Positions 1,714 to 64,000 of a stretch of DNA of 64,000 nucleotides are shown here, in pieces. Every line of letters begins with the position of its first letter. The stretch's first letter is position 1. The DNA lies in the NCBI GenBank assembly GCA_949825025.1, contig OX463784.1, positions 2,855,668 to 2,919,667 on the forward strand, given 5' to 3'. Both the position numbers and the translations under genes were made by a program. The notes under the pieces are model-generated. The model ran no database searches, was not told the DNA's origin, and was given only the letters and a program-made list of their open reading frames with translations. Source of the stretch: Siphlonurus alternatus (Eukaryota > Arthropoda > Insecta > Ephemeroptera > Siphlonuridae).

Positions 1714-2375
1714 TTAATAAGTTCAAATGTTAATGAGGCAAAAGATTTATGTTTAATCACTTCCTTAAAATTCTGAACAAGAGAATAATATTTATAATTT
1801 AAATTTTTGATTTCTCTGCAAGAACACTTCAATTTATTTATTTCGTCATCACAACATAAAAATTTTCAAAAATTTTGATTGAAATGCTGCGACTTTCCTA
1901 ATAATACACAATTTAAATCATCATAACTAATATTTATTAGCTGAATCGATAAAAGATATCGGAAAATACAATTGTCAATTCTATGCTGTTTTTAAGTTTT
2001 GAATCATGCTAAAAATATAAATTTTAGTAAACTGGAGGCAGGCTTGTGACAGGCTGTCTGCTCAAAGAAGCGATAAATTTTATAACAAATCAATGTAACT
2101 ACGAGGCTTTTGAAATACATACGCAATGATTAATTAATTTTTTACAAGCGTTTACATAAACGATTACCAGCAGACACTTCAATGACATCATGGGCGTAAC
2201 CACACCACAAGAAAATTGACTCTTCCTAATCTCTGTAAATATATTAGGCAAAATATATTAATTAAAAAATTGCACAAAATTTAAAGGTGTATTTCTCCGA
2301 GATGTTTCGATTGAGCAAATAAAAAAATTTGATACAATTTGTCCACTTTGTAGTCATCATCAATTTGTTTTTCAG

Positions 2376-2566
2376 CTTTTCTGCGGTCCGACATAGATAT
2401 CCCTGCAAGTGTTTTTGTTGTGATTTTTGCATCAATCAAAGACAATGCAATCCAAGAACATCCCATTGCAAGAATCGAGGAATTATTCCTTGCAGAGAAA
2501 TGCCCAAATCTCAATGGAAAACCAAAAATGTTAATGTTTCTTGATGCTAAAATTTCTTGCATACAA
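2376..2566 (+). pseudogene. Pseudo-caspase exon (p20 second half), duplicate copy
   Basis: A TTTTCAG acceptor precedes a 191-nt open exon that ends in CAA|GTAAGT. The frame (phase 1 in, phase 0 out) gives a caspase p20-like segment that includes FLAEKCPNLNGKPK, the counterpart of the family's 'CPsLkGKPK' strand before the catalytic cysteine. Its protein sequence is the same as that of the exon at 58,398-58,588; the two base differences I see are silent. The catalytic His position is Ala and no QAC motif is present. Both splice signals are intact, so it may still be expressed from an upstream gene outside the window. I label it a pseudogene because no complete gene is visible around it. Confidence 0.6.
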
Positions 2567-2914
2567 GTAAGTAACCAGTTATCCCCCCCTCCCACACACA
2601 CAAACACACATACCAAGAAAAAAGAAGCACATTACCAACTTGCCTGTACCATGAATATTGGCTGTTAAGTCAAGCTTCCTTCACTTACCCTTATTGATAC
2701 TTTTTGAATGTAATATTTAAAAAGAATGAAGTTCATTTTGTTAAAGAAATTAAACACGGTTAAATTACTATTAAATTTAATCCAGTGTGAAACGTAAACC
2801 TGAAACCAAAATTTAATTACAGATCATAATTTTCACGGCACGGCAAGCATTTACTAGATTAATTTTTTTCCAAATATCACTTCAAACAATTTTATGTAAT
2901 TCACAATTTGTAAT

Positions 2915-3229
2915 AGAGTATTGTCCTCAATTTTTTTTATTGCAGAAATGGAAAGAGGGTGCAAAGTTATGCTACACTGATTTTTTTCAGATTTTTTAGA
3001 GCCCGGGAACTATTTTTAAAAAATTATTGAAAGTCCGTTTCGTGACGTCACGAGACGCCGCTCCTTAAGAAAAAGATAGGACTTGACGCCGCGTGACGTC
3101 ACAAATAGGACTTTCAATAATTTTTTAAAAATACTTCCCGGGCTCTAAAAAATCGGAAAAAAATCAGGGTAGCATAACGTTGCACCCTCTATCCATTTCT
3201 GCAATAAAAAAAATGGAGGACAATACTCC
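2915..3229. mobile_element. 315-bp palindromic MITE with an empty site in the paralogous copy
   Basis: It is absent at the matching place in the other duplicate (near 59,680), where ...TGTAAT|TGCAT... is uninterrupted. The insertion duplicated AT (2,913-2,914 and 3,230-3,231). The arms are long inverted repeats starting GAGTATTGTCCTC, and they contain TTTATTGCAGAAATGGA, AGAGCCCGGGAA and a central GTGACGTCACG motif. It therefore inserted after the segmental duplication. Relatives lie at 35,196-35,465 and 35,944-36,280. Confidence 0.85.
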
Positions 3230-3253
3230 ATTGCATATATTTCAACATTCAAG

Positions 3254-3356
3254 GAATCTTCCCAAAGAGAACATGATGCCCGTGAAGGAACACTCAGCAC
3301 CGACTATTGCGTCACAAATCACTCAGACATCTTGATTGTGGGGGCCTGTGGAAAAG
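3254..3356 (+). pseudogene. Pseudo-caspase exon (p20/p10 linker), duplicate copy
   Basis: The 103-nt open exon lies between an AG acceptor (TTCAACATTCAAG) and a G|GTGAG donor, phase 0 to phase 1. It encodes a 34-residue segment ending DILIVGACGKG, the counterpart of the caspase 'DFLVxYSTxxG' strand. The copy at 59,706-59,808 reads IVRAYGKG instead. Three of the four differences I noted change the residue (Asn/Asp, Gly/Arg, Cys/Tyr), consistent with relaxed or altered constraint. No p10 exon follows within the duplicated block. Confidence 0.55.
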
Positions 3357-3473
3357 GTGAGATTGAAAATTTGAATCAAAGCTACCCTTCAAATTGTGAT
3401 TAACAGCTTTTTTCACTTGTTAAACGGTTTGAAGTAAATACGTGCAATGATGTAAGACACTATATTTAACCAA

Positions 3474-3722
<249 letters not shown>

Positions 3723-3839
3723 AATGAAAAGAAATGAACCGAAAAGGAAATGAAGCGAAAATTTTATTTTGCCACGCCCTCACCACGCCTTTGTTTAAGG
3801 GAGTGGTAGGGATGTATTTTAAAATCTGGCAACACTGTA

Positions 3840-3955
3840 ACATTTTCGGTTCATTTCCTATTCGATTTATTTCCTTTTCGGCTCATTTCATATTCGATTA
3901 AGTTCCTTCTCAGCTCAATCGGCTCATTTCCTTTTCGGCTGATTTCTTTATGTAC
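3840..3955. repeat. Short minisatellite, contracted copy
   Basis: Units of the type TTCGGCTCATTTCCTATTCG occur a few times here. The matching array at 60,300-60,590 is about 2.5 times longer. Confidence 0.7.
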
Positions 3956-46348: not shown

Positions 46349-48975
46349 TGTTTTTTTTTTTTTTTTTTTTTTTTAATATCTTTATTTATAAAATAGTAGC
46401 GTCCAGCCAGGATAAATCCTAATGGCCGGTTAGCATTACATTATTTATATAGTTGTTACACAGTTCAATAATAATAATAATAATAATTTTTTATAAGTTT
46501 GCATTTTACAATATCTTAATGATTATCTCCAACTTTGTACATTGTATATGAAATATTTACTTGAAATAATCAAAATAACAAAAGAAAACATTATAGTTAT
46601 AATTTTGTGAAGCTTAAAAATAATTTTTAGTATTATATTCAAAACAACAACGAGAGCATCAAATTTAAATTACATAATATTTTCCTAAAATTCTATTACA
46701 ACTCAAAAAAATTTTTTTAAGTCCAATCAGAAAACATACATATAGACAATAAGAGCCACAGCTCTTCTAGGTCCATCTGAAACAAAGGACTTTAGTATAT
46801 TTGTTTTATACACTACAAACAAGCACACAAGTAAACAGATTTATGTATTACTCAGTGAAAATAAAAGTGAGCATGAATTATTATTAATTTCAAAATTTTA
46901 AAAAAGATTGAAGAAAAGAATATCTTAGAGAAAAAAAAGTAATAATATAATATAACTATATTAATTATCCAATTATTTATTTAATTTTATAAAAGAACAA
47001 AAGGAAAGAAACAATATGTTTCCGTGCTTAAAAGAAAATTTAATACATGAAAGATAAACCACTAAAAAGCTAGAAAGAGCTAAAACGGTATACACAATAA
47101 CTAAAAACTGAAATAGATTGAAAAAATAATTATTTGCTGAAACAAAAGAAATTCTGAAACAAAAGAATATCTGGAACAGAATAGACATAACAATTAATTT
47201 ATCATACATGATGTGTATTTTATATGTCATTATATTATGAACAATAATTATACATAGTTATAACTGTATTTATCTATTTATGTAGAACAATTGTTACCAC
47301 AAACATTAGTATAATAAATACATCTTACTATAGCTTATTCAAAAACAATCTTTTTAACTTAAATTTTACACTAACTTTACTATCTAAATTTTTAACACTA
47401 GCAGGTAGAGTATTCCATAATCTTGGCAATATAAAGTCTATTGTTCTCTGTCCGAATCTATTTGTACTCCGTGGACGTCTTAGCGGATTATTCATTGCAT
47501 TCTAGTATGATGAGGATGCACACGAGGTATACCATGGCAATCTACAAAATATATATCCACTAAAAGTGAATACTCAGCAATCTGTTTTACTGGTAATACA
47601 CTCCAATATTTAAAAATATTATCATTGATTTTAAATTTAACTCCTTTTTTCATTTTTTTCAAAATTCTTGTTTGCATTTTACACAAGTAAGTATAAGCCC
47701 CAGATTGTACAAAACCCCAAGAAGTGATACCATAAATAAGATGAGAGTGTACCAATTAAAAATAAATAGATCGTATAGTTTTTTCATCAACAAATTTTTT
47801 AATCATTAATAATTGTGATAAAACTGACCTTAGATTTTTTATTAAGTTATGGATATGAATATCCCAATTAAAATTTTGATCCAATATTACTCTTAAGTAT
47901 TTATGATGGTCCACTTGTTCAAGTATTTCACAGTTACAACCAATTTGAAAATTATGTAAACATTGATTGCTATGAGCTTTCAATTCTAGTTTTTCATCAG
48001 ACCTCAAATACTTATTGAAAATATGCATTGCTTTAGTTTTTTTCAAGTTCAAAATTAAACCTCTATCATGAGTAAATTCAGACAAACAATCAATGTTCTT
48101 TTGCATTATTTTCTGTGCCTCTGCAAAGTTTTCATGTGAACAGACCACCAACAGGCCCCAGAATACTTCCTTGAGCAATTCCAACAGTAATGGTTTTTAT
48201 CTCACCTTTAACATTATTAACTTTAAAACTGATTTTCCTATCACGTATGAGGTCACCAAAGAGCTTTAAAAGGGGCCCTCGTATACCAATTTCTTCTAAA
48301 TCAGACAGTAAAATATTATGATTTACCGTATCAAACGCTTTCAAAAATCTACAAACAGAGAAATTAAATGTTTATTATGACTTAATTCTTTATTAATATG
48401 ATCGGATATTTCACAAATTAGCTGAGTTGTACTTTTATTCTTCTGATATGCAAATTGATTTTCATTGATAATATTAAATTTAATAATATAAGCTGTTAAA
48501 TGATCATCCAAATATTTTTGTAAAATTTTATCAATAATTGACAGAATTGCTATCGGACGATAATTTACAAATATATTATGCTTGCCTGATTTAAAAATGG
48601 CTCGAATAATAGCCAGTTTCAGCTCAGATGGAAATTCAGATAATTTTAAACAAAGATTAATAAAATTATTAATACACAAAATCATATCATCGCCCGCTGC
48701 AAATATATCTTTAATAGTTATCCCATCATGACCGGGACCTTTATTGATATTAAAATTTAAAATAATATTTTTTGTGATTTCAAAAGTAATAGGTGGTATA
48801 TATAATGATTGAGGTTGTTCACAGTTACTTACAAATTCACTAAGTTTGATATCACAATTATGAATAATATTTTGTACACCTTCAACAAAAGTATTCGCGA
48901 AACCATTAACAATTTCAATAGTGCTTTTATCATGACTCATGTAACATCATCATTATTATTTACCTTTCTGGTGTA
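46349..48975 (-). mobile_element. LINE B copy 2, 5'-truncated and decayed
   Basis: The T run at 46,350-46,374 is a minus-strand poly(A). A 3' UTR of about 1 kb follows, then ORF2 fragments in several frames: 47,4xx-47,755 (SHLIYGITSWGFVQSG), 47,756-48,184 (DRGLILNLKKTKAMHIFNKY), 48,132-48,344 (KAFDTVNHNILLSDLEEIGI) and 48,341-48,940 (YRPIAILSIIDKILQKYLDD). The 5' end is lost within ORF2. Confidence 0.85.
47492..48940 (-). pseudogene. LINE B copy 2 reverse transcriptase with the catalytic FADD block deleted
   Basis: Compared with LINE B copy 1 the sequence passes from IAQGSILGP (motif B) directly to LLVVCSHENF. The roughly 25 residues between them in copy 1, including the FADD catalytic motif, are missing. 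Frameshifts near 47,756 and 48,340 also break the frame. The copy cannot encode an active enzyme. Confidence 0.8.
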
Positions 48976-49308: not shown

Positions 49309-49316
49309 ATGCAGAG
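49309..49316 (+). CDS. Caspase exon 1 (start codon exon), candidate
   Basis: ATGCAGAG|GTAAGC: an ATG in good context (TTAAAATG) leaves phase 2 at a strong donor, which is the phase the next exon needs. This gives Met-Gln-Arg before the caspase fold and so a short-prodomain enzyme. An upstream in-frame stop (49,244 area) makes this ATG the first one available. A longer prodomain spliced from further upstream remains possible. Confidence 0.5.
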
Positions 49317-52300
49317 GTAAGCATGTTAAGGAGTAGTAAGAAAATAAGAGGGCAATTCAACGTGTATTCAATTCAAATACATAGTTATTATGGTTAGATT
49401 TTTAAAATGTGTGTCAAGAATAAATTTATATTTTAAAATGAAATTTTATAAAGAGATGCTTAATTATATTTGCCATACTACAAATTAAATTTTCAGTTAA
49501 GCTGCGTCTTTTTATATAAATATTTAGTTTCCTACACTGCAAATTCGTGCGAGTAAAAGAGTCAATTCATATTTTTTTTTATACAATATTTACCTTGCGT
49601 TACATACTACAACAGTTAGCAGGATACTAAAATAATCCTATATAGATCAGAGTTAACAGATTAAAGCACGAAAACATTCCTTTTCAATTTAAAAGTAAAG
49701 ATTGACATTTAAAACAATAGGAATATGAATTCTGGTGTAACAATCAGTATAAGATCTCCTATCAATTATATGAACAAAACTAGTAATGTTAAATTTCAGA
49801 TTTTTCAAATGATTTTTTCCAGACTTGTTACCGGACTTCGTGACTTCAAGGTTCCTGGACGAGTGCTCGTCTTCAACCATTACAGTTATGAAAGTAATGA
49901 ACTCACAACGAGGGTTGGAACAAGTGAAGACGTCAAAAGTCTTAGAAAGGTTTTTACGGACATGGGTTTTGAGTTCGAAGTGTGTGAAGAATTAAAGAAA
50001 AAAGAAATTATCAACAAATTAAAAAAATGTAAGTTTTATAATAATATATTGTAGGTATTAAATCAGCAATATCAGTTAATTGTGATGCAAAAAAAAATAG
50101 TATTTTTGTCATCGAAATTACGTACTGCAATACAGTCTTTTTAAATTAATGTTGATCACTTCGTACTTCACTTCACTAGTGATCTCGAGTGACCATTACA
50201 ACACCAAGGCTTTGCCATGTAATGTAAGATGTGGCAATCCTGCATACGGTAAGTGGTAGCGAGCACACCTCTGGGAAACATTTCATTCCCCTGTGATGTG
50301 CGGCTCTGTAATACCTTTACATCATACGCCGTGTTGTCACATCTTGCATATATTATACGGAGGAGAATTGATGCCGTTTAGCGGATAATGTTCTGATAAA
50401 TGTTCATATAATATCACATGCAATGCGAAGTGTTTTTCTTTTTATATAGTATAAACAGACAGTAAATATAAAAGGAGTTAATTTAATGTAAGAAAAATCC
50501 ATAATAGTTCACTGAACAAACCTTATTTACTTTATTGAATTATTTGCAAGAACTTAATTTATTTGTTCAATTCAAATCAATTCGCAACAAATGTTTTCAG
50601 AAAAATTTAATCTATTTATTTATTTATACTTTTAAAAAAAAAAAGATGTTATCAATAACTTGTCTCGATTGTTATTCCTCGCAGATTCAGAAGAAGAATA
50701 CTCACAGGTTGGCAGTCTGGTGGTGGTAGTGATGACTCACGGAAGCAAGGAGGGAGTCTTGTGGGCTGATGACAAATCATACAATGTGAAAGATTTGTGG
50801 GATCCATTTGTCCCTTGCAAGGCCTTAAAAGGAAAGTTGAAACTTTTTTTTATTCAGGTGTGTGATATTTTTCAAAGATTTTACTGCATTATATATATAT
50901 ATAGTGATGTTTTCACTATTACGCTTAGTAAAATTTTGAGTTTCAAATAATAATATTGGTGGTGTAGCGATAACGTGGTCTAACGCAGAAGTGGAACAAT
51001 TTCACAAAACGGACAAACTCGTCGTATGCGTGCAAATTTTTTGTGGAATGTTTTCTCGGTCGAAAACAATAAAAAAAAACTTTTTATTCCTTATTTATTC
51101 ATGCTTTCATTCTATATGATTCCAGAAATCGTAGGCATCAGATTCTCTCAAATTAATATTAATACTTGTTATTTATTTCAGGCGTGCCGAAGTGATGCCA
51201 AGTCAAGGAAGAATGGAGTTTATCTTAATAGTAATGACTCAAGACCAAGTGCGAATGACACCTCCCCAAGCAGCATGTACCCACATGCCAAGGACTTCGT
51301 CGTATCATACAATACTGTGGAAGGTGAGTGGCTTTAGTTTTATTAAATGTTTCGCTCATTAGGTTGTGTACAATTATTTAATTACATTTTATGTGGTTTA
51401 AATCAGCATTAAATTAAGAGCTCCAATTTGGATGTAATTTTTCAACCATTTCTGTAAATTGAACTTCATTCACACTTAAAAGGAAAGAAAATGCAGCTCG
51501 TGTGCAAATTCTCGCTGAGTGGCTGGGAGGGGTCAGATCCCGAAGGTATTATACTGCTGGCAGGGAGACAGAAGGGTAGGCGGGGTATTATAATTTCATA
51601 GAATTGAAAGTAGACAAGTCATATCAGGGTCCATTTTTTGCGAATATTTCACGAAATTTTGCACTAAAATTTGCACAAAAATTTATTTTGTGCGTTTTTT
51701 TGCATCTCTGCTTAGAAGCCACTTCTGTCAATCTGAAGTGACGAGATGCTTTTAAGAACTTGAATCTTAGATCCTTTTTTGTTCTTTCGTATTGCAAGTT
51801 AATGTACAAACAAACAACAATTCCAAATTTTTATTAAAAAGTGACAATGAAATATGGTTGCTAACTCGATCTTATTAATAAATGTGATCGGGGACATTCA
51901 AGAAACACTTACATCAGATCCCCACTTTAGCCTCGATTTATATCGCTGGTGCTAAACCAGGGAATTAACACAGGGACTAACCATGTTTAGCACTAGGGAT
52001 AAATATTGAGGCCATGGTAAGTATTAGAAAGCTTCTTCAATGCCTCCCATTATCTTACTTGATTGCCACAGTATATATAAGAATTAACTGTATAATAATA
52101 TTTTATGGACGTTCTTTTCAGATCGACTTTCTACGCGAGATAGAGAAGTTGGAACATTTTTCATCCAAACGCTGTGCAGGGAGCTAACACAATGGAATAC
52201 TCTGGATCTTCTGACCATTCTTACGAAGGTCACCAAACACGTCATCCGTGACTTTCAGACTGCTGAAACTACTGGGCAAACCCCAGTCTTTGTCTCTTTC

Positions 52301-53088
52301 TTGCCTAGACAAATCTTAGCAAGGTGAGAGTATAATAAATAAATATTTACACCATTTTTTAAATAATTGCGAATCAAAATTAATAAATATTATTTTGTAT
52401 TCTTAAATATCTATAGTACACAAAAAACTAGTAGTTTAGTCATAAGATTTTGTTTTTCAATTTCTGTTTAGAATTGCACATTATTATTGCAATCACGAGA
52501 ATTTGCAAAAACTTGCTTCATTTTCCAATTGATCCATTTCTGAGAAAAAATTAAATTTAGCCATGCACAAAGCACTGCAAAATCTTGCAGAATTTTTTTA
52601 TTTTTCTAAGTAATTAAGTTCAACCAATATTATATCAACTAATAAAATTCAAGGTTTTCATAATTTGTTTTTACATTGTAATTTTCATAAAACGATATAA
52701 AAATTTAATTTAACTAACCCAAAGGCGATCACTAAAGTACTTACCTTCACATCATTTGGTGTCCTATCCAAACGAAATAAAAAGGAATTTCTAATATAAA
52801 TTCATTTATTATAAAATTAAATACTGGAAATAATTTAATAATTATTTTTAATTTATAAGTACTCTACTTTATAAATTAAAAAACTTACCATCTTAATGAA
52901 TATAGTTTTATATCTTGCTTTCACATATTCCCCGTGTATATTTAATTGAATAAAAAACAAGTTTAGTATACAGAACAACAACTTCCATGGATTTTTGCAT
53001 TTTTAGTAGAATTTGTAATTCATTACATGAAATTAAATATTTCGAATTCATTTTAGTCCTTAAAACTTGATTAAATAAGTAATTAATG

Positions 53089-53141
<53 letters not shown>

Positions 53142-53456
53142 AACAATTCCTACGACTGTTATTAAGTTTTAATTTTAGTTAATTATTGAACTTTCTCAAC
53201 AGCAAAACGCCATTTATTTCAAGAGTTAGATCAGCGTTGTCATTAAAGCCAAGCGAGTCTACAAACAGTACATCAAGGTGAGTAGCTGATTTTTTTTTTT
53301 TTTTTTACTCAGGATAGGAAATCTTGCAGGCAATTTATGGTCAGAATAATGATTGTGGAACAAAAAATGAGAAATAAATATCAATAAGAAACGATTGTAA
53401 TAAATTGGAATATATTTAAAAAGTATCATATAGGAATTAAAATAAAAAAATTATAA

Positions 53457-53519
<63 letters not shown>

Positions 53520-56500
53520 ATGTATGGATGCATGTATGCATGTATGCATTTATGCATGCATGCATGCATGCATGCATGGATGCATGTATGCATGTATGCA
53601 TGTATGCATGTATGCATGTATGCATGTATGCATGTATGCATGTATGCATGTATGCATGTATGCATGTATGCATGTATGCATGTATGCATGTATGCATGTA
53701 TGCATGTATGCATGTATGCATGTATGCATGTATGCATGTATGCATGTATGCATGTATGCATGTATGCATGTATGCATGTATGCATGTATGCATGTATGCA
53801 TGTATGCATGTATGCATGTATGCATGTATGCATGTATGCATGTATGCATGTATGTATGTATGTATGTATGTATGTATGTATGTATGTATGTATATATGTA
53901 TATATAGAAAAACAAATAAACACTTAAATAAACCAATTTGTTAAAAACAATATATATATTTAAGTCTTGTCATTATTTCTTAGTAGACTAGTATGGATTC
54001 ATGTATCAACTCTGGTAAACGGAGAAAATACCCTTTGATAAAATACCCTCAGATATAATACCCAGACAAAATACCCTAGGACAAAATACCCTCAGACAAT
54101 TTACCCTAGGACAAAATACCCTTGGATAATTTACCCTAGGACAAAATACCCTTGGACAATTAACCCTAGGACAAAATACCCTTGGACAAAATACCCTGGG
54201 ATAAAATACCCTTGGAAAAAATACCCTAGGACAAAATACCCTTGGATAATTTACCCTAGGACAAAATACCCTTGGACAAAATACCCTTGGACAAAATACC
54301 CTAGGAAAAAATACCCTTGGACAAAATACCCTCAGATAAAATACCCTCAGACAAAATACCCATGGACAAAATACCCTTGGACGAAATACCCTCGGACAAA
54401 ATACCCTTAGACGAAACACTCTTTGACAGAATACCCTCAGACAATTTACCATATTTATTATAATATATAACAGCATCTTAGGTATTTCGTAGAATGATAA
54501 AAATTATACCTACATCATGCAAACATTTTCCACACATGTATTGTATATAAACTGTACAGTACAGTATTATATAATATTATTATTATTAAAGGGACAGGGT
54601 ACAATAATTTTCATGTTGCATAAAAAGTTTCCTATTGAAGTAATAAAATTAAAAATGTGTCAATTGCCCCAAAATACCAACCAACCAACCAAAATTAAAA
54701 ATATATGATATTTCGGATTTCAACAGTACCAATAATTATAATCATAAATTTATGATTAAAATTTCTATAATTTATAATATGTTATTGCGAATTGCCCATG
54801 AAAAAGGTAAAAAAAAATTCACTGAATCCTGCGCATGATACTTTCACAGCATAATTTATTTTTTTATACGTTTAGTTGTAGAGTATAATAATTAAATATT
54901 TAGCACCTTTTAATTATTTTATTATTTATCATGTTATTTTTTTAAGGGTAAGATAACACGAAGAATCGATTGTTGTAGTCCCATTTGATTAACATGTAAA
55001 TCTTAGCAACCTCATAATAATTCTGAATTTTTTTTGAGAGACAGTTTTTGGCACCAAAAAAATATGGAAAAAATTTCAAAACAATCGGACGATCCAATTT
55101 TTTTAAACGAATTTTTTAAATTTTTAGTATAGGGCTTTCCCATGGAGACCTAAACTAAGAAAATAATTTAAAAAAATTGGATCGTCTGATTGTTTTGAAA
55201 TATTTTCCATATTTTTTTGGTGCCAAGAACTGTCTCTCAAAAAACATTCAGAATCATTATGAGGTTGCTAAGGTTTACATGTTAATCAAATGGGACTACA
55301 ACAATCGATTGTTCGTGTTCTCTTACCCTTAATGTAGGTTAATTTGGGTGCAATAAATTTGAGCCAACCCAGGCAAAAAGGACTTTGGGGGGGGGGGGGG
55401 GGGAAATAAGTAAATGTAAATGAACAGGGGAGACTAAATAAAACATCGCATAATAATTATGGTATAATCATTTTACAATGAATGTATGAATGCATTTTTT
55501 TCATTATTTTTTAATAAAGAGCAAAAACAAAACAAAAAGTAAGAATAAAAAATCGTCACCTCATGAATAGAAGAAAACATTGCTTCCCCACCCAATTTTT
55601 TACGTATTAACATAATGTTACATTGTAAGGTCGACAAGAGATACATTGCTTTTTGCAGTAGAATGTTCTATAAACTTACTCATGGAAACCAGCTATAAAA
55701 TTAAATGTTCATAATGGTTTTAAAATTTATGTTGTCACGGGTAACAACCAGCACAAAGCATGATAGTAAAATACGTATTGCTATTTCAGTTATTTATTTG
55801 TTATTTTATTGTACAAAATCATTATTTACCAGAAAAAATTATATTTAATTCACATTTTTAATGATGAGAAGAAATTTTATATTTTTGAAGATATAGAATT
55901 ACATGTACACTGGGTACATAATAAAATTATCTTTAAAAGTATTTAGTTGTGTTAAAAAGCCTTTATAACTTCTTAATGCATATTAGTGACTTAAAAATAT
56001 TGAGACACCGGGGAAAAAAATCATATACTTCTTTCTTACCGAACTTTTAGTTATATAATTTTGACAAAAAGACCAGACTACGGAGCCGGCCCCGTTAGGA
56101 AAAAACGAGCATTGATGTGTATAGTATATTAAAAGATATTTGAGTGAGACGACTATATATGAACGAACTGAACACGAGTGGGGACGTGCATTTTTACCCA
56201 AGCGTTTTGGAATTGAGATTCATATATCTATTATATATTATTCAAAACGATGATTATTCTTTGAATGAGCTAGTTTATGAATGTATTGCAAATGAAATAT
56301 TCCAGTATTTTCAAAAATGTGAATTTCTCGCCCTGAATTGAAACTGAAATTTTTCCCAACCTGAAAGTGATGGGTATTTTATCCGAGGGTATTTTGTCTA
56401 AGGGTATTTCGTCTAAGGGTATTTTGTCTGAGGGTATTTTGTCTGAGGGTATTTTGTCCAAGGGTATTTTGTCCAAGGGTATTTTGTCCAAGGGTATTTT

Positions 56501-59500
56501 GTCTAAGGGTATTTTGTCCAAGGGTATTTTATCTGTGGGTAAATTGTCCAAGGGTATTTTATCCCAGGGTATTTTGTCCGAGGGTATTTTGTCCGAGGGT
56601 ATTTTGTCCAAGGGTTAATTGTCTAAGGGTATTTTGTCCAAGGGTTAATTGTCTGAGGGTATTTTGTCCAAGGGTTAATTGTCCGAGGGTATTTTGTCCA
56701 AGGGTATTTTGTCCTAGGGTATTTTGTCTGGGTATTATATCCGAGGGTATTTTATCAAAGGGTATTTTATCCGTGATTCATCAACTCTATATAAAGTTAA
56801 AACAATTTTGTAAACAACATATACATGAACAATTATCATTTAAATAAAATTATCATTATAGTAATGACTATTATAAAATGCATTGGTTTAGTATTTTACT
56901 TTATAGTTAAACCAATTTGTGTAAATTAAAAATTTTTTCATGTGTTACAAGAATTACGTTATAAAAGTATTGGCTGTTTACAAATTTTTTTTGCCAGATT
57001 TATATCTGGCAAAACAAATTTGTAAAGCTTTAATTTTCCAAAATTTTCGGTACCATGGACCTATTCAATTCTGATATTTTTGCATATTATGTAAAAAAAA
57101 TCATTTATTTAAAGTTCAAGCAGAGTACAGAATCTAGTGAGCAAAATGAAAAAATGGAACAAACAATTGAATGATTACATTTATTTCATTTTCAAACAAT
57201 TTGTAATATTAATGTACGTATGTAATTATGTAATATATAGACTTATTTAACGTTCAGTTTTGATACATTATGGCACATAAATAGCAATGTTAGTAAAAGT
57301 GAATCAATAAAACAATAGCAACGAATATTCAATGCACAAATATAGCTAAAACATAAACTGTCTTAATATTGCAAAATTATATTGGTTTTCTACATTTTAA
57401 AATTCTGCATTACATGATACTTATTATTTATACTTATTACTTTTTTGTTACACACTAATCAATAATTACGTGTTGTTCTTTAAAAATATTAGAGAAATCC
57501 AGCAAAGCGAAGACAGTGACGAAGTTTACAAAATACCCGCAGACAAACCTGGATGTAGTTTTGTGTACTTTGAAGAAGGTCAGGAAAGCGATGCTAAAGA
57601 GATGTCAAAAATTTTGTCTCTACTTCACTTCATCCCTCACTTGAGAAAATTTGACTCGTCAGCTGTTATCATAAATGAACTGGAACAAGGTAATATTATA
57701 TAAATATAGTGTAAGTAGACTTGATTTGTTGAGAAACATACCACATAAAAATGCTTTAATAAGTTCAAATGTTAATGAGGCAAAAGATTTATGTTTAATC
57801 ACTTCCTTAAAATTCTGAACAAGAGAATAATATTTATAATTTAGATTTTTGATTTCTCTGCAAGAACACTTCAATTTATTTATTTCGTCATCGCAGCATA
57901 AAAATTTTCAAAAATTTTGATTGAAATGCTGCGACTTTCCTAATAATACACAATTTAAATCATCATAACTAATATTTATTAGCTGAATCGAAAAAAGATA
58001 TCGGAAAATACAACTGTCAATTCTATGCTTTTTTTAAATTTTGAATCATGCTAAAAATATAAATTTTAGTAAACTGGAGGCAGGCTTGTGACAGGCTGTC
58101 TGCTCAAAGAAGCGATAAATTTTATAACATATCAATGTAACGACGAGGCTTTTGAAATACATACGCAATGATTAATTAATTTTTTACAAGCGTTTACATA
58201 AACGATTACCAGCAGACACTTCAATGACATCATCAGCGTAACCACACCACAAGAAAATTGCCTCTTCCTAATCTCTGTAAATATATTTGGCAAAATATAT
58301 TAATTAAAAAATTGCATAAAATTATGTTTCGATTGAGCAAATAAAAAAATTTGATACAATTTGTCCACTTTGTAGTCATCATCAATTTGCTTTTCAGCTT
58401 TTCTGCGGTCCGACATAGATATCCCTGCAAGTGTTTTTGTTGTGATTTTTGCATCAATCAAAGACAATGCAATCCAAGAACATCCCATCGCAAGAATCGA
58501 GGAATTATTCCTTGCAGAGAAATGCCCAAATCTCAATGGAAAACCAAAAATGTTAATGTTTCTTGACGCTAAAATTTCTTGCATACAAGTAAGTAACCAG
58601 TTATCCCCCCCTCCCACACACACAAACACACGGTAAGCGGAAAAAAAACCCTCGGAAAAAAAACCCTTGTATTAAAAAACCCTTGAAAAAAAACCCTAGG
58701 AAAAAAAACCCTCGGGGATAAAAAACCCACGGAAAAAAAACCCTTCGCTGAAGGAGCAGCCCCAAGGAGCATTCGTGGCGTAGTGTAGCGCGGTGTAGCG
58801 AGGTTTCACGTTTTTTTTCCTATTTTGACAGATTATCATTATAATGTTCCAATAATATATATTACATAAGATATCATATATCTGATTAGTCTCATTAGTC
58901 ATGTTAATAATAATTATTGAATCACTTAACCTATAAGATATTATAATTTTCAAATGTTCATTTTATGTCTATATGTTATATAATAATAATAAGAGTAGGA
59001 CGACGACTTTTTTTTGTTTTATTTCTTTTTTATTTTAATTATTTTATATCCAATATATAATATTCGAAGTTAGAAAAAATATGTTTTTAAAATAATTTTT
59101 AACTAAAACACAGTTGGAATTACTATACAGATAATAGTTAACTTCCACAACATCGCCGCGTAGACTTCTTATACATTTTGATGAGCTCCCCACACCGTGA
59201 AACCTCGCTACCGCGCTACTACGCCACGAATGCTCCTTGGGGCTGCTCCTTCAGCGAAGGGTTTTTTTTCCGTGGGTTTTTTATCCCCGAGGGTTTTTTT
59301 TCCTAGGGTTTTTTTTCAAGGGTTTTTTAATACAAGGGTTTTTTTTCCGAGGGTTTTTTTTCCGCGATTCAAACACACATACCAAGAAAAAAGAAGCACA
59401 TTACCAACTTGCCCGTACCATGAATATTGGCTGTTAAGTCAAGCTTCCTTCACTTACCCTTATTGATACTTTTTGTATGTAATATTTAAAAAGAATAAAG

Positions 59501-59808
59501 TTCATTTTGTTAAAGAAATTAAACACGGTTAAATTACTATTAAATTTAATCCAGTGTGAAACGTAAACCTGTAATTAAAATTTAATTACAGTTCATAATT
59601 GTCACGGCACGGCAAGCATTTACTAGATTAATTTTTTTCCAAATATCACTTCAAACAATTTTATGTAATTCACAGTTTGTAATTGCATATATTTCAACAT
59701 TCAAGGAATCTTCCCAAAGAGAACATGATGCCCGTGAAGGAACACTCAGCACCGACTATTGCGTCACAGATCACTCAGACATCTTGATTGTGCGGGCCTA
59801 TGGAAAAG
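49309..59808 (+). CDS. Caspase fused to a catalytically dead caspase domain (spliced gene, 3' end incomplete)
   Basis: Nine exons join in frame into 432 codons: 49,309-49,316; 49,823-50,028; 50,685-50,857; 51,182-51,323; 52,122-52,323; 53,203-53,277; 57,493-57,689; 58,398-58,588; 59,706-59,808. Domain 1 (residues about 11-243) is a complete caspase: substrate Arg33 (TTRVGT), catalytic His90 (MTHGS), catalytic Cys131 (QACRS), S1 Arg182 (STRD) and the p10 motif GTFFIQTLCREL. The Arg-to-His spacing (57) and His-to-Cys spacing (41) match executioner caspases (57 and 42 in caspase-3). There is no long prodomain. A 25-residue linker leads to domain 2 (269-432), which lacks the Arg, His and Cys. Caspases are cytosolic cysteine proteases that cleave after Asp. 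The dead half may regulate the live half, as FLIP-type pseudocaspases do in other animals (inference). The p10 part of domain 2 should lie further downstream. Confidence 0.85.
49823..50028 (+). CDS. Caspase exon 2 (p20, first half)
   Basis: Acceptor TTTTTTCCAG and donor AAT|GTAAGT; 206 nt, phase 2 to phase 1. It encodes VPGRVLVFNHYSYE (first strand) and TTRVGTSEDVKSLRKVF with the substrate-pocket Arg33, then GFEFEVCEELKKKEI. The following intron (50,029-50,684) holds nothing recognisable. Confidence 0.9.
50685..50857 (+). CDS. Caspase exon 3 (p20, catalytic His)
   Basis: Acceptor TTCCTCGCAG, donor CAG|GTGTGT; 173 nt, phase 1 to phase 0. It encodes GSLVVVVMTHGSKEGVLWAD with the catalytic His90-Gly91 and ends with KGKLKLFFIQ, so the intron falls between Gln and Ala of QAC. 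Confidence 0.92.
51182..51323 (+). CDS. Caspase exon 4 (catalytic Cys and p20/p10 linker)
   Basis: Acceptor TTATTTATTTCAG, donor AAG|GTGAGT; 142 nt, phase 0 to phase 1. It opens with ACRSD: the active-site pentapeptide is QACRS rather than the usual QACRG. The linker has Asp134, Asp148 (NSND|S) and Asp155 (SAND|T), which could serve as self-cleavage sites. KDFVVSYNTVE is the first p10 strand. Confidence 0.92.
51885..52050. repeat. Decayed ATTCA-end MITE in caspase intron 4
   Basis: CGGGGACATTCAAGAAACAC, CCCCACTTTAGCC and TAGCACTAGGGATAAATATT correspond to the element at 23,690-23,892 in the same order, with much divergence. It ends just upstream of exon 5. Confidence 0.55.
52122..52323 (+). 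CDS. Caspase exon 5 (p10)
   Basis: Acceptor GTTCTTTTCAG, donor AAG|GTGAGA; 202 nt, phase 1 to phase 2. It encodes STRDREVGTFFIQTLCRELT (S1 Arg182, then the small-subunit helix) and ends TPVFVSFLPRQILAR, the usual end strand of a caspase. The family's Trp before that Arg (SWR) is Thr here. Confidence 0.92.
53092..53139. repeat. (AT)n in caspase intron 5
   Basis: A pure AT tract of about 48 bp. Confidence 0.9.
53203..53277 (+). CDS. Caspase exon 6 (interdomain linker)
   Basis: Acceptor CTTTCTCAACAG, donor AAG|GTGAGT; 75 nt, phase 2 to phase 2. It encodes a Ser/Thr-rich 25-residue stretch (KPSESTNSTS) with no Asp. It is supported by splice signals and by phase agreement on both sides, and could be skipped without changing frame. 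Confidence 0.7.
53457..53892. repeat. (AT)n followed by an 8-bp (ATGCATGT)n array in caspase intron 6
   Basis: About 60 bp of AT lead into roughly 34 copies of ATGCATGT (to about 53,850), then (ATGT)n. Almost every step alternates purine and pyrimidine. Frames run open through it on both strands, but they are pure repeat (Met-His-Cys-Tyr type) and not genes. Confidence 0.95.
54014..56779. mobile_element. 2.77-kb foldback element with tandem-repeat inverted ends (intron 6)
   Basis: ATCAACTCT (9 bp) is duplicated at 54,005-54,013 and 56,780-56,788. The ends are GGTAAACGGAGAAAATACCC and the inverse of GAATCACGGATAAAATACCC. Each arm is an array of a 15-bp unit, GGACAAAATACCCTT (variants GGATAATTTACCCTA and others), at 54,020-54,440 and inverted at 56,370-56,775. 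The interior is AT-rich, non-coding, and contains a nested 383-bp palindrome. Drosophila FB elements also have inverted ends made of short tandem repeats and 9-bp duplications (family knowledge). Confidence 0.85.
54946..55328. mobile_element. 383-bp TTAA-flanked palindrome nested in the foldback element
   Basis: TTAA at 54,942-54,945 and 55,329-55,332. The ends GGGTAAGATAACACGAA and the inverse of GGGTAAGAGAACACGAA lead into long arms (GTCCCATTTGATTAACATG, TTTTTTGAGAGACAG) that mirror around 55,135. A one-arm relative is at 4,584-4,750. TTAA duplication with GGG ends suggests a piggyBac-type MITE. Confidence 0.85.
57493..57689 (+). CDS. Pseudo-caspase exon 7 (p20 first half, domain 2)
   Basis: Acceptor ATATTAG, donor AAG|GTAATA; 197 nt, phase 2 to phase 1, the same phases as exon 2. 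DEVYKIPADKPGCSFVYFEE aligns with FKVPGRVLVFNHYSYE of domain 1, and EMSKILSLLHFIPHLRKFDS with the following helix. The loop that carries the substrate Arg (TTRVGT) is missing. Before the fold, EDSDEVYK offers possible caspase-cleavable Asp sites (DSD, SDEV). Confidence 0.8.
58398..58588 (+). CDS. Pseudo-caspase exon 8 (p20 second half, domain 2)
   Basis: Acceptor TGCTTTTCAG, donor CAA|GTAAGT; 191 nt, phase 1 to phase 0, as in exon 3. PASVFVVIFASIKDN aligns with GSLVVVVMTHGSKEG: the catalytic His is Ala353 and Gly is Ser. CPNLNGKPK is the typical strand lead-in, but LMFLDAKIS stands where LFFIQACRS would be (Cys replaced by Lys), or ESSQ of the next exon if intron positions are aligned (Cys replaced by Ser). 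On either reading no catalytic Cys remains. Confidence 0.85.
58632..59370. mobile_element. 739-bp foldback element with tandem-repeat ends (intron 8)
   Basis: AAACACAC (8 bp, or 9 with the preceding C) is duplicated at 58,624-58,631 and 59,371-59,378. The sister copy at 2,600 has the empty site. The ends are GGTAAGCGGAAAAAAAACCC and the inverse of GAATCGCGGAAAAAAAACCC. The arms hold about six units of GGAAAAAAAACCCT, then a unique inverted block (AAGGAGCAGCCCCAAGGAGC). It is the same family as 54,014-56,779 by end sequence and design. It inserted after the segmental duplication. Confidence 0.9.
59706..59808 (+). CDS. Pseudo-caspase exon 9 (linker and first p10 strand, domain 2)
   Basis: Acceptor TTCAACATTCAAG, donor AAG|GTGAGA; 103 nt, phase 0 to phase 1, as in exon 4. 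It opens ESSQ where domain 1 has ACRS and ends HSDILIVRAYGKG, parallel to KDFVVSYNTVEG. The linker is 13 residues shorter than in domain 1. Confidence 0.8.
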
Positions 59809-63369: not shown

Positions 63370-64000
63370 GTGCTTCTGCACTTGCTGTTAGAGGAGGAGA
63401 AAGCCATAAAATGAACCGCTGTCAAACACGTTTATAATTTTGATTGTTTATTTCTCAATGCAAGAAAATACTATACCAGTGATCTGAGACTTTAGAGAAT
63501 AATATTATTTATATATTTTTTATAGTTAGAAAAATGGAAATTTTCTCTATTGCGCCAAGTTTCTAAGACAGTAATTTTTTTTGTGTATATGTATATTGAA
63601 AATTAAATAAAAAAATATATACGATTATTACATCTTGTAAAAGTATAGTAAATGTCACAAAATGTGTTATTAAATTAATATTTTCATTTAATTCACAATC
63701 AAACAATATAAATAAAGGAAAGGTAAATTGGTTATTTTAAAAAAAGTGCAAATTAACAAATACACATTTTCTCTCGATTTATTCATATTTACAAATTTCA
63801 GTGATAAATCACAAAAACAATTTTAATAAAATTTTAATTTTTTAAATTTTACATACAAGCATTGGATCCAACCACCACATTGGGCAACAACCCTTCGCTT
63901 TTACAGCTGTATACATACGTCACTGATATCCATGTAGCCACCATACCATGGATACAGATTTGAAAGCTCAAAAAGTCATTTTATTTTTTTTATTCTAGGC
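63370..64000. other. AT-rich interval, no gene seen
   Basis: No frame or repeat recognised. The last bases (TTTTTTTTATTCTAG|GC) could be an acceptor for an exon beyond the window. Confidence 0.35.

Follow-up and report, generated by a model that had tools for sequence, protein, structure and literature searches.

Caspases work as dimers, and in separase, which belongs to clan CD and is not a caspase, a dead caspase-like domain stands in front of the active protease domain. The published account of coral caspase-X from Acropora describes single chains that combine a dead with an active domain, several paralogues, a dead domain without His and Cys, increased killing of HeLa cells when the dead domain is removed, and a distribution that the authors thought was perhaps restricted to corals (PMC4715348). 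Mammalian CASP16 is described as one gene whose duplicated caspase exons, with splice phases kept, encode a dead N-terminal domain and an active domain in one chain (PMC12198278), and in Mytilus coruscus four of the caspases carry two CASc domains (PMC10967218). Reports on separately encoded dead caspases describe cFLIP(L), a dead caspase homologue that pairs with caspase-8 and alters its output (PMC11121540), and mosquito CASPS18, a decoy that enhances CASPS19 (PMC4840389, with further passages in PMC3141678). Here, we analyzed a stretch of 64,000 nucleotides from the ephemeropteran insect Siphlonurus alternatus (the window, C7:2855668-2919667 of a 456-Mb genome), which holds a gene model encoding an active caspase followed by a dead caspase domain. 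An earlier note on this DNA had doubted that a tandem caspase is described; coral caspase-X and CASP16, both with the opposite order (PMC4715348, PMC12198278), settle that doubt.

We favor, with a probability of roughly 0.57, the reading that this locus is a member of an insect multigene family in which an active caspase and a caspase domain long since devoid of substrate binding and catalysis are made as one chain, the dead half serving as a tethered dimer partner. The evidence comes from the window gene itself, from loci of the same layout in the genome and from the phylogeny of the dead domains.

Architecture of the window gene

Nine exons were rebuilt into a single open frame of 442 amino acids with AG/GT at every internal border, in agreement with the in-frame exons and canonical splice sites proposed in the earlier note. 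Domain 1 is encoded by exons 2–5, and alignment places Arg33, His90, Cys131 and Arg182 at exactly the positions that the note had given. The domain combines the features of Peptidase C14A, namely a Pfam C14 domain, the His-Cys dyad and two substrate-pocket Arg residues (best stretch 15–238), and its best-scoring solved relatives are 1m72 from Spodoptera (E 5.1e-33) and 3sir (E 5.6e-33), which we take to be Drosophila Drice. Domain 1 is predicted to be an active, executioner-like caspase.

The earlier note had also suggested a Peptidase C14 profile search of the joined protein, and this search, with Pfam Peptidase_C14, returned two matches; domain 2 alone (exons 7–9) scores 27.3 bits (E 3.4e-6) against a curated cut-off of 21.4. 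The note's description of domain 2 as caspase-like without catalytic residues was borne out over the positions that could be read, the second Arg being unread: the His position is occupied by Ser (FASI where domain 1 has MTHG), the Cys position by Ala (MFLDAK where domain 1 has FFIQAC), and the loop bearing the first Arg is deleted. Recognizable by profile and devoid of the catalytic His and Cys, domain 2 is a pseudocaspase domain. Base-shuffled versions of the dead exons, taken separately, stay open in 38, 48 and 259 of 4000 trials. Exons 2, 3 and 4 have the phases 2-1, 1-0 and 0-1, and the identical series recurs in exons 7, 8 and 9. Exon 8 matches the dead exon at C7:7.48 with E 2.2e-7, and at the paralogue loci searched no convincing homologue of linker exon 6 was found (best E 2.0). 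The gene model is incomplete, because exon 9 terminates at a donor, and its exon 1 is weak, with a donor score of 5/7 and without independent support; coordinates are given in Table 1.

Table 1. Coordinates of the exons of the tandem caspase gene and of other features of the window
Feature	Position	Strand	Description
Exon 1	49309..49316	+	ATG plus 5 bases (8 coding bases), phase out 2; ATGCAGAG, then gtaagc
Exon 2	49823..50028	+	Active domain, first strand and Arg33 loop; own-genome PF00656 match
Exon 3	50685..50857	+	Active domain, His90 (VVMTHGS); own-genome PF00656 match
Exon 4	51182..51323	+	Active domain, Cys131 (QACRS) and inter-subunit linker
Exon 5	52122..52323	+	Small subunit of the active domain with Arg182; donor AAG/GTGAGA in phase 2
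Exon 6	53203..53277	+	Linker exon of 75 bases, phases 2-2, keeps frame
Exon 7	57493..57689	+	First strand of the dead domain, with deletion of the Arg loop; phases as exon 2
Exon 8	58398..58588	+	Dead domain with Ser at the His position and Ala at the Cys position; phases as exon 3
Exon 9	59676..59808	+	Dead domain TDHSDILIVRAYGK; paralogue TEHTDFFLVYGYGK; phases as exon 4
Tentative exon 10	63860..63963	+	Putative dead-domain end with stop, phase 1 (fits); unproven, profile E 0.58
Inverted-repeat element	54019..56774	.	2.75 kb, 400-bp inverted arms of 15-bp units, inner palindrome 54942-55332
Partial duplicate	1714..3842	+	Copies introns 7-9 and exons 8-9; two main pieces 96-97%, third 89%

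Active and dead caspase exons elsewhere in the genome

The genome was searched with dead-domain queries from the window, C7:7.48 (L045) and C5:36.68 (L048), with domain 1 of the window as the active query, and with Pfam. An exon-8-type dead match was found at 14 loci, window included: C7 at 2.914 (the window), 7.414, 7.482, 7.507 and 24.437; C2 at 1.814, 2.928 and 3.911; C1 at 8.144; C5 at 18.721 and 36.681; and C6 at 9.027, 16.611 and 17.673. At 13 of the 14 loci, the dead exon has an active caspase exon on its 5' side, on the same strand and at a distance of 1.7 to 15.7 kb, the exception being C6:16.611. These 13 loci are related by duplication and therefore do not represent 13 independent events. 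Three of the matches are weak: at C5:18.72 the active match (24.7 bits) has one stop; at C6:17.67 the match contains one stop; and at C7:7.414, the weakest locus kept, the dead match (E 0.11) is no better than that of the active exon C3:40.88 listed alongside it, but the locus does not appear among the active-query matches. Left out of the 14 were a relic at C7:2858039-2859022, the active caspases C3:40.88 and C11:59.89 caught by the dead queries, an intronless gene at C2:27.88 that was counted apart, ankyrin-only matches, and matches with E above 6 (C4:49148852, C3:48849171, C3:48863502 and C11:14843846).

Caspase genes read in the genome are mostly built on a four-exon plan, and profile matches combined with a splice scan placed dead exons behind the active sets at L045, at C2:1.82 (L047, minus strand) and at L048. 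Dead exons 7 (phase 2 in, 1 out) and 8 (1 in, 0 out) are present at all four loci read, window included; the scan for the sister exons had asked for those expected phases beforehand. Among all nearby AG sites, the acceptor richest in pyrimidines is one of the expected phase for both exons at L047 and L048 and for exon 8 at L045. Exon 7 at L045 has two CAG sites of the expected phase, and a TAAG site of a different phase has more pyrimidines than either. The catalytic His and Cys are absent from all three of these other dead domains read over exons 7–8, the His position being Thr, Thr and Lys and the Cys position Asn, Pro and Ala at L045, L047 and L048, respectively; the visible part of the dead exon at C6:9.03 (L049) reads VVVLATRV, again without His. 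By alignment, the L045 dead domain, which scores 39.3 bits with Pfam C14, retains the small-subunit region. The active partners read at seven loci (the window, L044, L045 in part, L046, L047, L048 and L049) all have THG or SHG together with QACR, and the first Arg is present in six of six and the second in seven of seven where read. For the Drice-like paralogue, the named matches among the best 120 of 715 listed are insects, headed by a small margin by the mayfly Cloeon dipterum (61% identity).

In a tree of 32 rows and 257 columns, the four dead domains read make up one clade (support 100/98) on long branches, and all four share the Arg-loop deletion, in which about 11 residues of window domain 1 are missing. 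A recent internal duplication, with domain 2 derived from domain 1 of the same gene, was considered and discarded, the arrangement of the two window domains as sisters being rejected (p-AU 0.018, long branches). As to an origin by exon duplication of the CASP16 type, exons 2–4 and 7–9 agree in phase, but domains 1 and 2 are not sisters in this tree. The rejected sisterhood and the single dead clade indicate that the dead domain predates the window gene and is common to its sisters; with branches this long, a shared, older origin is likely on these trees and not certain. A constraint that keeps all eight active domains together with the four dead ones was not rejected (p-AU 0.442). The active partners of the window, L046, L047, L048 and L049 group with the C9 caspase at 93/84.

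An intronless gene also bears on the joined architecture. At C2:27.8747-27.8764 Mb (L036, 4742-6358), a 556-codon frame contains two C14 domains (138 and 128 bits), the first with THG and QACQ and the second with THG kept and NAS for QAC, so that Cys is replaced by Ser. At the level of the reading frame, this gene is an instance in this species of an active domain joined to a Cys-less one. Placement of the L036 domain with the four dead domains was not rejected (p-AU 0.446).

A second paralogue appears to extend the chain further. At C7:7.48, the last dead-domain exon (phase 1; L045 9637-10000, C7:7484636 onwards) continues into ankyrin-like repeats within an open frame of 852 codons. The first repeat read matches the ankyrin consensus with E 1.4e-7, a repeat query found three more places in the frame, each weak (E 0.06, 2.8 and 5.3), and Pfam Ank_2 scores 20.7 bits, below its cut-off of 27.3, over a stretch cut by the locus end. 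This gene is likely a caspase–dead caspase–ankyrin fusion, as predicted from its open frame. At the sister locus C7:7.51, the frame is only 104 codons long; near the window gene, no convincing ankyrin match was found up to 30 kb past the window (best E 1.1, upstream of the gene). A literature phrase search for caspase-ankyrin fusions returned nothing relevant.

Two further arrangements were observed at other caspase loci. C5:17.910-17.955 Mb (L037-L040) holds a cluster of at least four sets of caspase exons whose inter-subunit linkers contain long insertions, and the three dead queries gave no match there. At C9:17.65 Mb (L050, minus strand), an exon-3-like piece in which His is replaced by Asp (LTDG) lies about 3.6 kb upstream of a caspase exon set on the same strand, possibly a dead-then-active arrangement, to go by these two pieces.

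Proposed joining of the two halves and possible role of the dead domain

The same evidence bears on whether the halves of the window gene are expressed together. Two adjacent genes could account for them: the first would encode an active caspase and end at exon 5, the second would be a separate decoy gene transcribed from a promoter of its own and starting with a tiny exon within intron 6, and their products would act as separate proteins in the manner of mosquito CASPS18/19. Read-through of the exon 5 donor does give an immediate stop (PRQILAR*) and with it a complete 244-amino acid caspase, and separate dead caspases are known in Diptera (PMC3141678, PMC4840389). The stop, found in six of eight exon sets examined (a dead partner being present at seven of those eight), is uninformative, because any phase-2 GTGA or GTAA donor yields one. 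When intron 6 was scanned for mini-exons starting with ATG, none had a donor score of at least 6 and 12 appeared at a score of 5, nine of them inside a microsatellite; since window exon 1, itself tiny and in phase 2, scores just 5, the dead set could begin likewise and the scan is not evidence against two genes. What makes separate genes unlikely is the identical order and strand at 13 loci, together with the one intronless joined gene. The 4.2 kb of intron 6 between the gene halves consists mostly of the inverted-repeat element and the microsatellite (53463-53905), so the active-dead spacing would be near 1 kb without them.

The covalent join proposed in the earlier note is thus supported indirectly, by the shared order and strand at 13 of 14 loci, by fitting phases and by the intronless paralogue; from these we infer that exons 5, 6 and 7 are joined within one gene and one transcript. 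The exon 5 stop was also considered as a designed short isoform and set aside, being automatic from the codon arithmetic of the donor, and is kept only as a possibility: retention of intron 5 would yield a free 244-amino acid caspase as a consequence of that arithmetic, which is not evidence of design.

If exons 6–9 were a recent relic of a decaying duplicate, the working protein would come from the active exons. The missing exon 10, the long dead-domain branch and a relic copy of exons 8–9 nearby fit such a view. The copy is a relic because its exon 9 no longer has an acceptor AG and contains an insertion whose ends look inverted by eye. In contrast, exons 7–9 are free of stops and broken splice sites over their 174 codons. 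The dead exons at the three sister loci are likewise all open at 21–27% identity, which long neutral decay would not leave, and we consider decay quite improbable. Exon 8 and its copy are separated by 2 synonymous changes and no non-synonymous one (P 0.024 for none); for exon 9 the respective counts are 0 and 3, and the introns differ at 28 of 1119 positions. Intron 8 of the gene has an insertion at 58626-59370 with inverted arms 58637-58810 and 59196-59365 (98% alike) that is absent from the duplicate, and upstream of the gene, on the minus strand at 47492-48946, the open reading frame list contains fragments that resemble, by eye, a non-LTR retrotransposon reverse transcriptase.

Under the reading that we favor, both halves would be carried on one transcript and the dead domain would be a tethered dimer partner that regulates the active caspase. 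Held at high local concentration, the C-terminal dead domain would occupy the dimer site of domain 1 and pair with it in the way that cFLIP(L) pairs with caspase-8. The activity of domain 1 would thereby be given a threshold or be shaped, also in its timing and targets. The active domain might then be freed by cutting of the linker or by leaving intron 5 unspliced, which would give the free 244-amino acid form. Intramolecular control of this kind is plausible by analogy. The dead domain could instead be a scaffold or sensor module that recruits other proteins and leaves enzyme dimerization untouched. The likely ankyrin repeats that follow the dead domain in the 852-codon frame of a sister gene favor a scaffold, as does deletion of the Arg loop of the substrate pocket, which leaves mainly surfaces. 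Set against this, the dead domains retain core caspase motifs by alignment, and dead caspase domains described in the literature pair with active ones (PMC4715348, PMC11121540), making a pure scaffold rather unlikely. A bolder version of the tethered-partner reading, an expanded arsenal of self-contained caspase switches with a dead protomer in cis, gating by intron 5 and at least one ankyrin member acting as sensor, regulator and protease in a single chain, with a logic like that of an immune receptor that has its executioner built in, seems doubtful.

Several observations weigh against the tethered-partner reading. Catalytic positions were read at four of the 14 dead loci, and one more was read at the His position; the remaining nine are called dead by a stronger match to the dead queries and a weaker match, or none, to the active query. 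For the dead domain of the window gene, no confident small-subunit exon, the part expected to supply the dimer interface, was found in 34 kb downstream, a stretch searched with five queries and a 9-sequence p10 profile that gave 63838-63963 (E 0.58) as sole candidate. The relic copy does not prove constraint, exons 8 and 9 together having 3 non-synonymous changes where 6.1 are expected (P 0.14). In the phylogeny, the dead domains sit on long branches, two C7:7.5 active partners fall outside the group of five so that the active partners are not shown as one clade, and an earlier tree with one out-of-frame row (the C11 caspase) left one dead domain outside the clade. AlphaFold2 modeled the active-dead Anopheles tandem caspase P0004 as two caspase folds with a pTM of 0.50 and no confident packing, which neither supports nor refutes packing of the domains.

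Comparison with described caspases and pseudocaspases

Among insect database models with two caspase domains, motifs read by eye give an active-dead order for P0004 of Anopheles aquasalis, a dead-active order for P0042 of Frankliniella occidentalis, and catalytic motifs in both domains for P0040 of Condylostylus longicornis. No description of an insect caspase family of this kind was found in the literature, a search outside which most subscription papers lay. The active-first order, the multi-locus insect expansion and the ankyrin fusion seem to be new.

If the favored reading is true, the family would offer a natural series on how a dead protomer controls a live one, with many paralogous enzyme–pseudoenzyme pairs at a fixed 1:1 ratio, and whether a pseudocaspase activates or restrains its partner would become testable by cutting the linker or removing a domain. 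Insects would join corals and mammals as lineages with a tandem architecture.

The comparison with individual systems turns on domain order, gene number and covalent joining. The predicted window protein, known from genomic sequence, resembles coral caspase-X in its single chain and its paralogues and differs in having the active domain first, the coral dead domain being N-terminal. CASP16 is likewise dead-first and is one gene, whereas the window family has its dead domain at the C terminus and occupies many loci. P0004 of Anopheles aquasalis has the same order as the window gene, but its dead domain has TCG and QAR for THG and QAC and lies outside the dead clade. Unlike the joined frame of the window, cFLIP(L) and caspase-8 are separate proteins; and CASPS18 and CASPS19, an insect dead caspase with an active paralogue as here, are encoded by separate genes, whereas in the window the corresponding pair appears to be joined in one frame.

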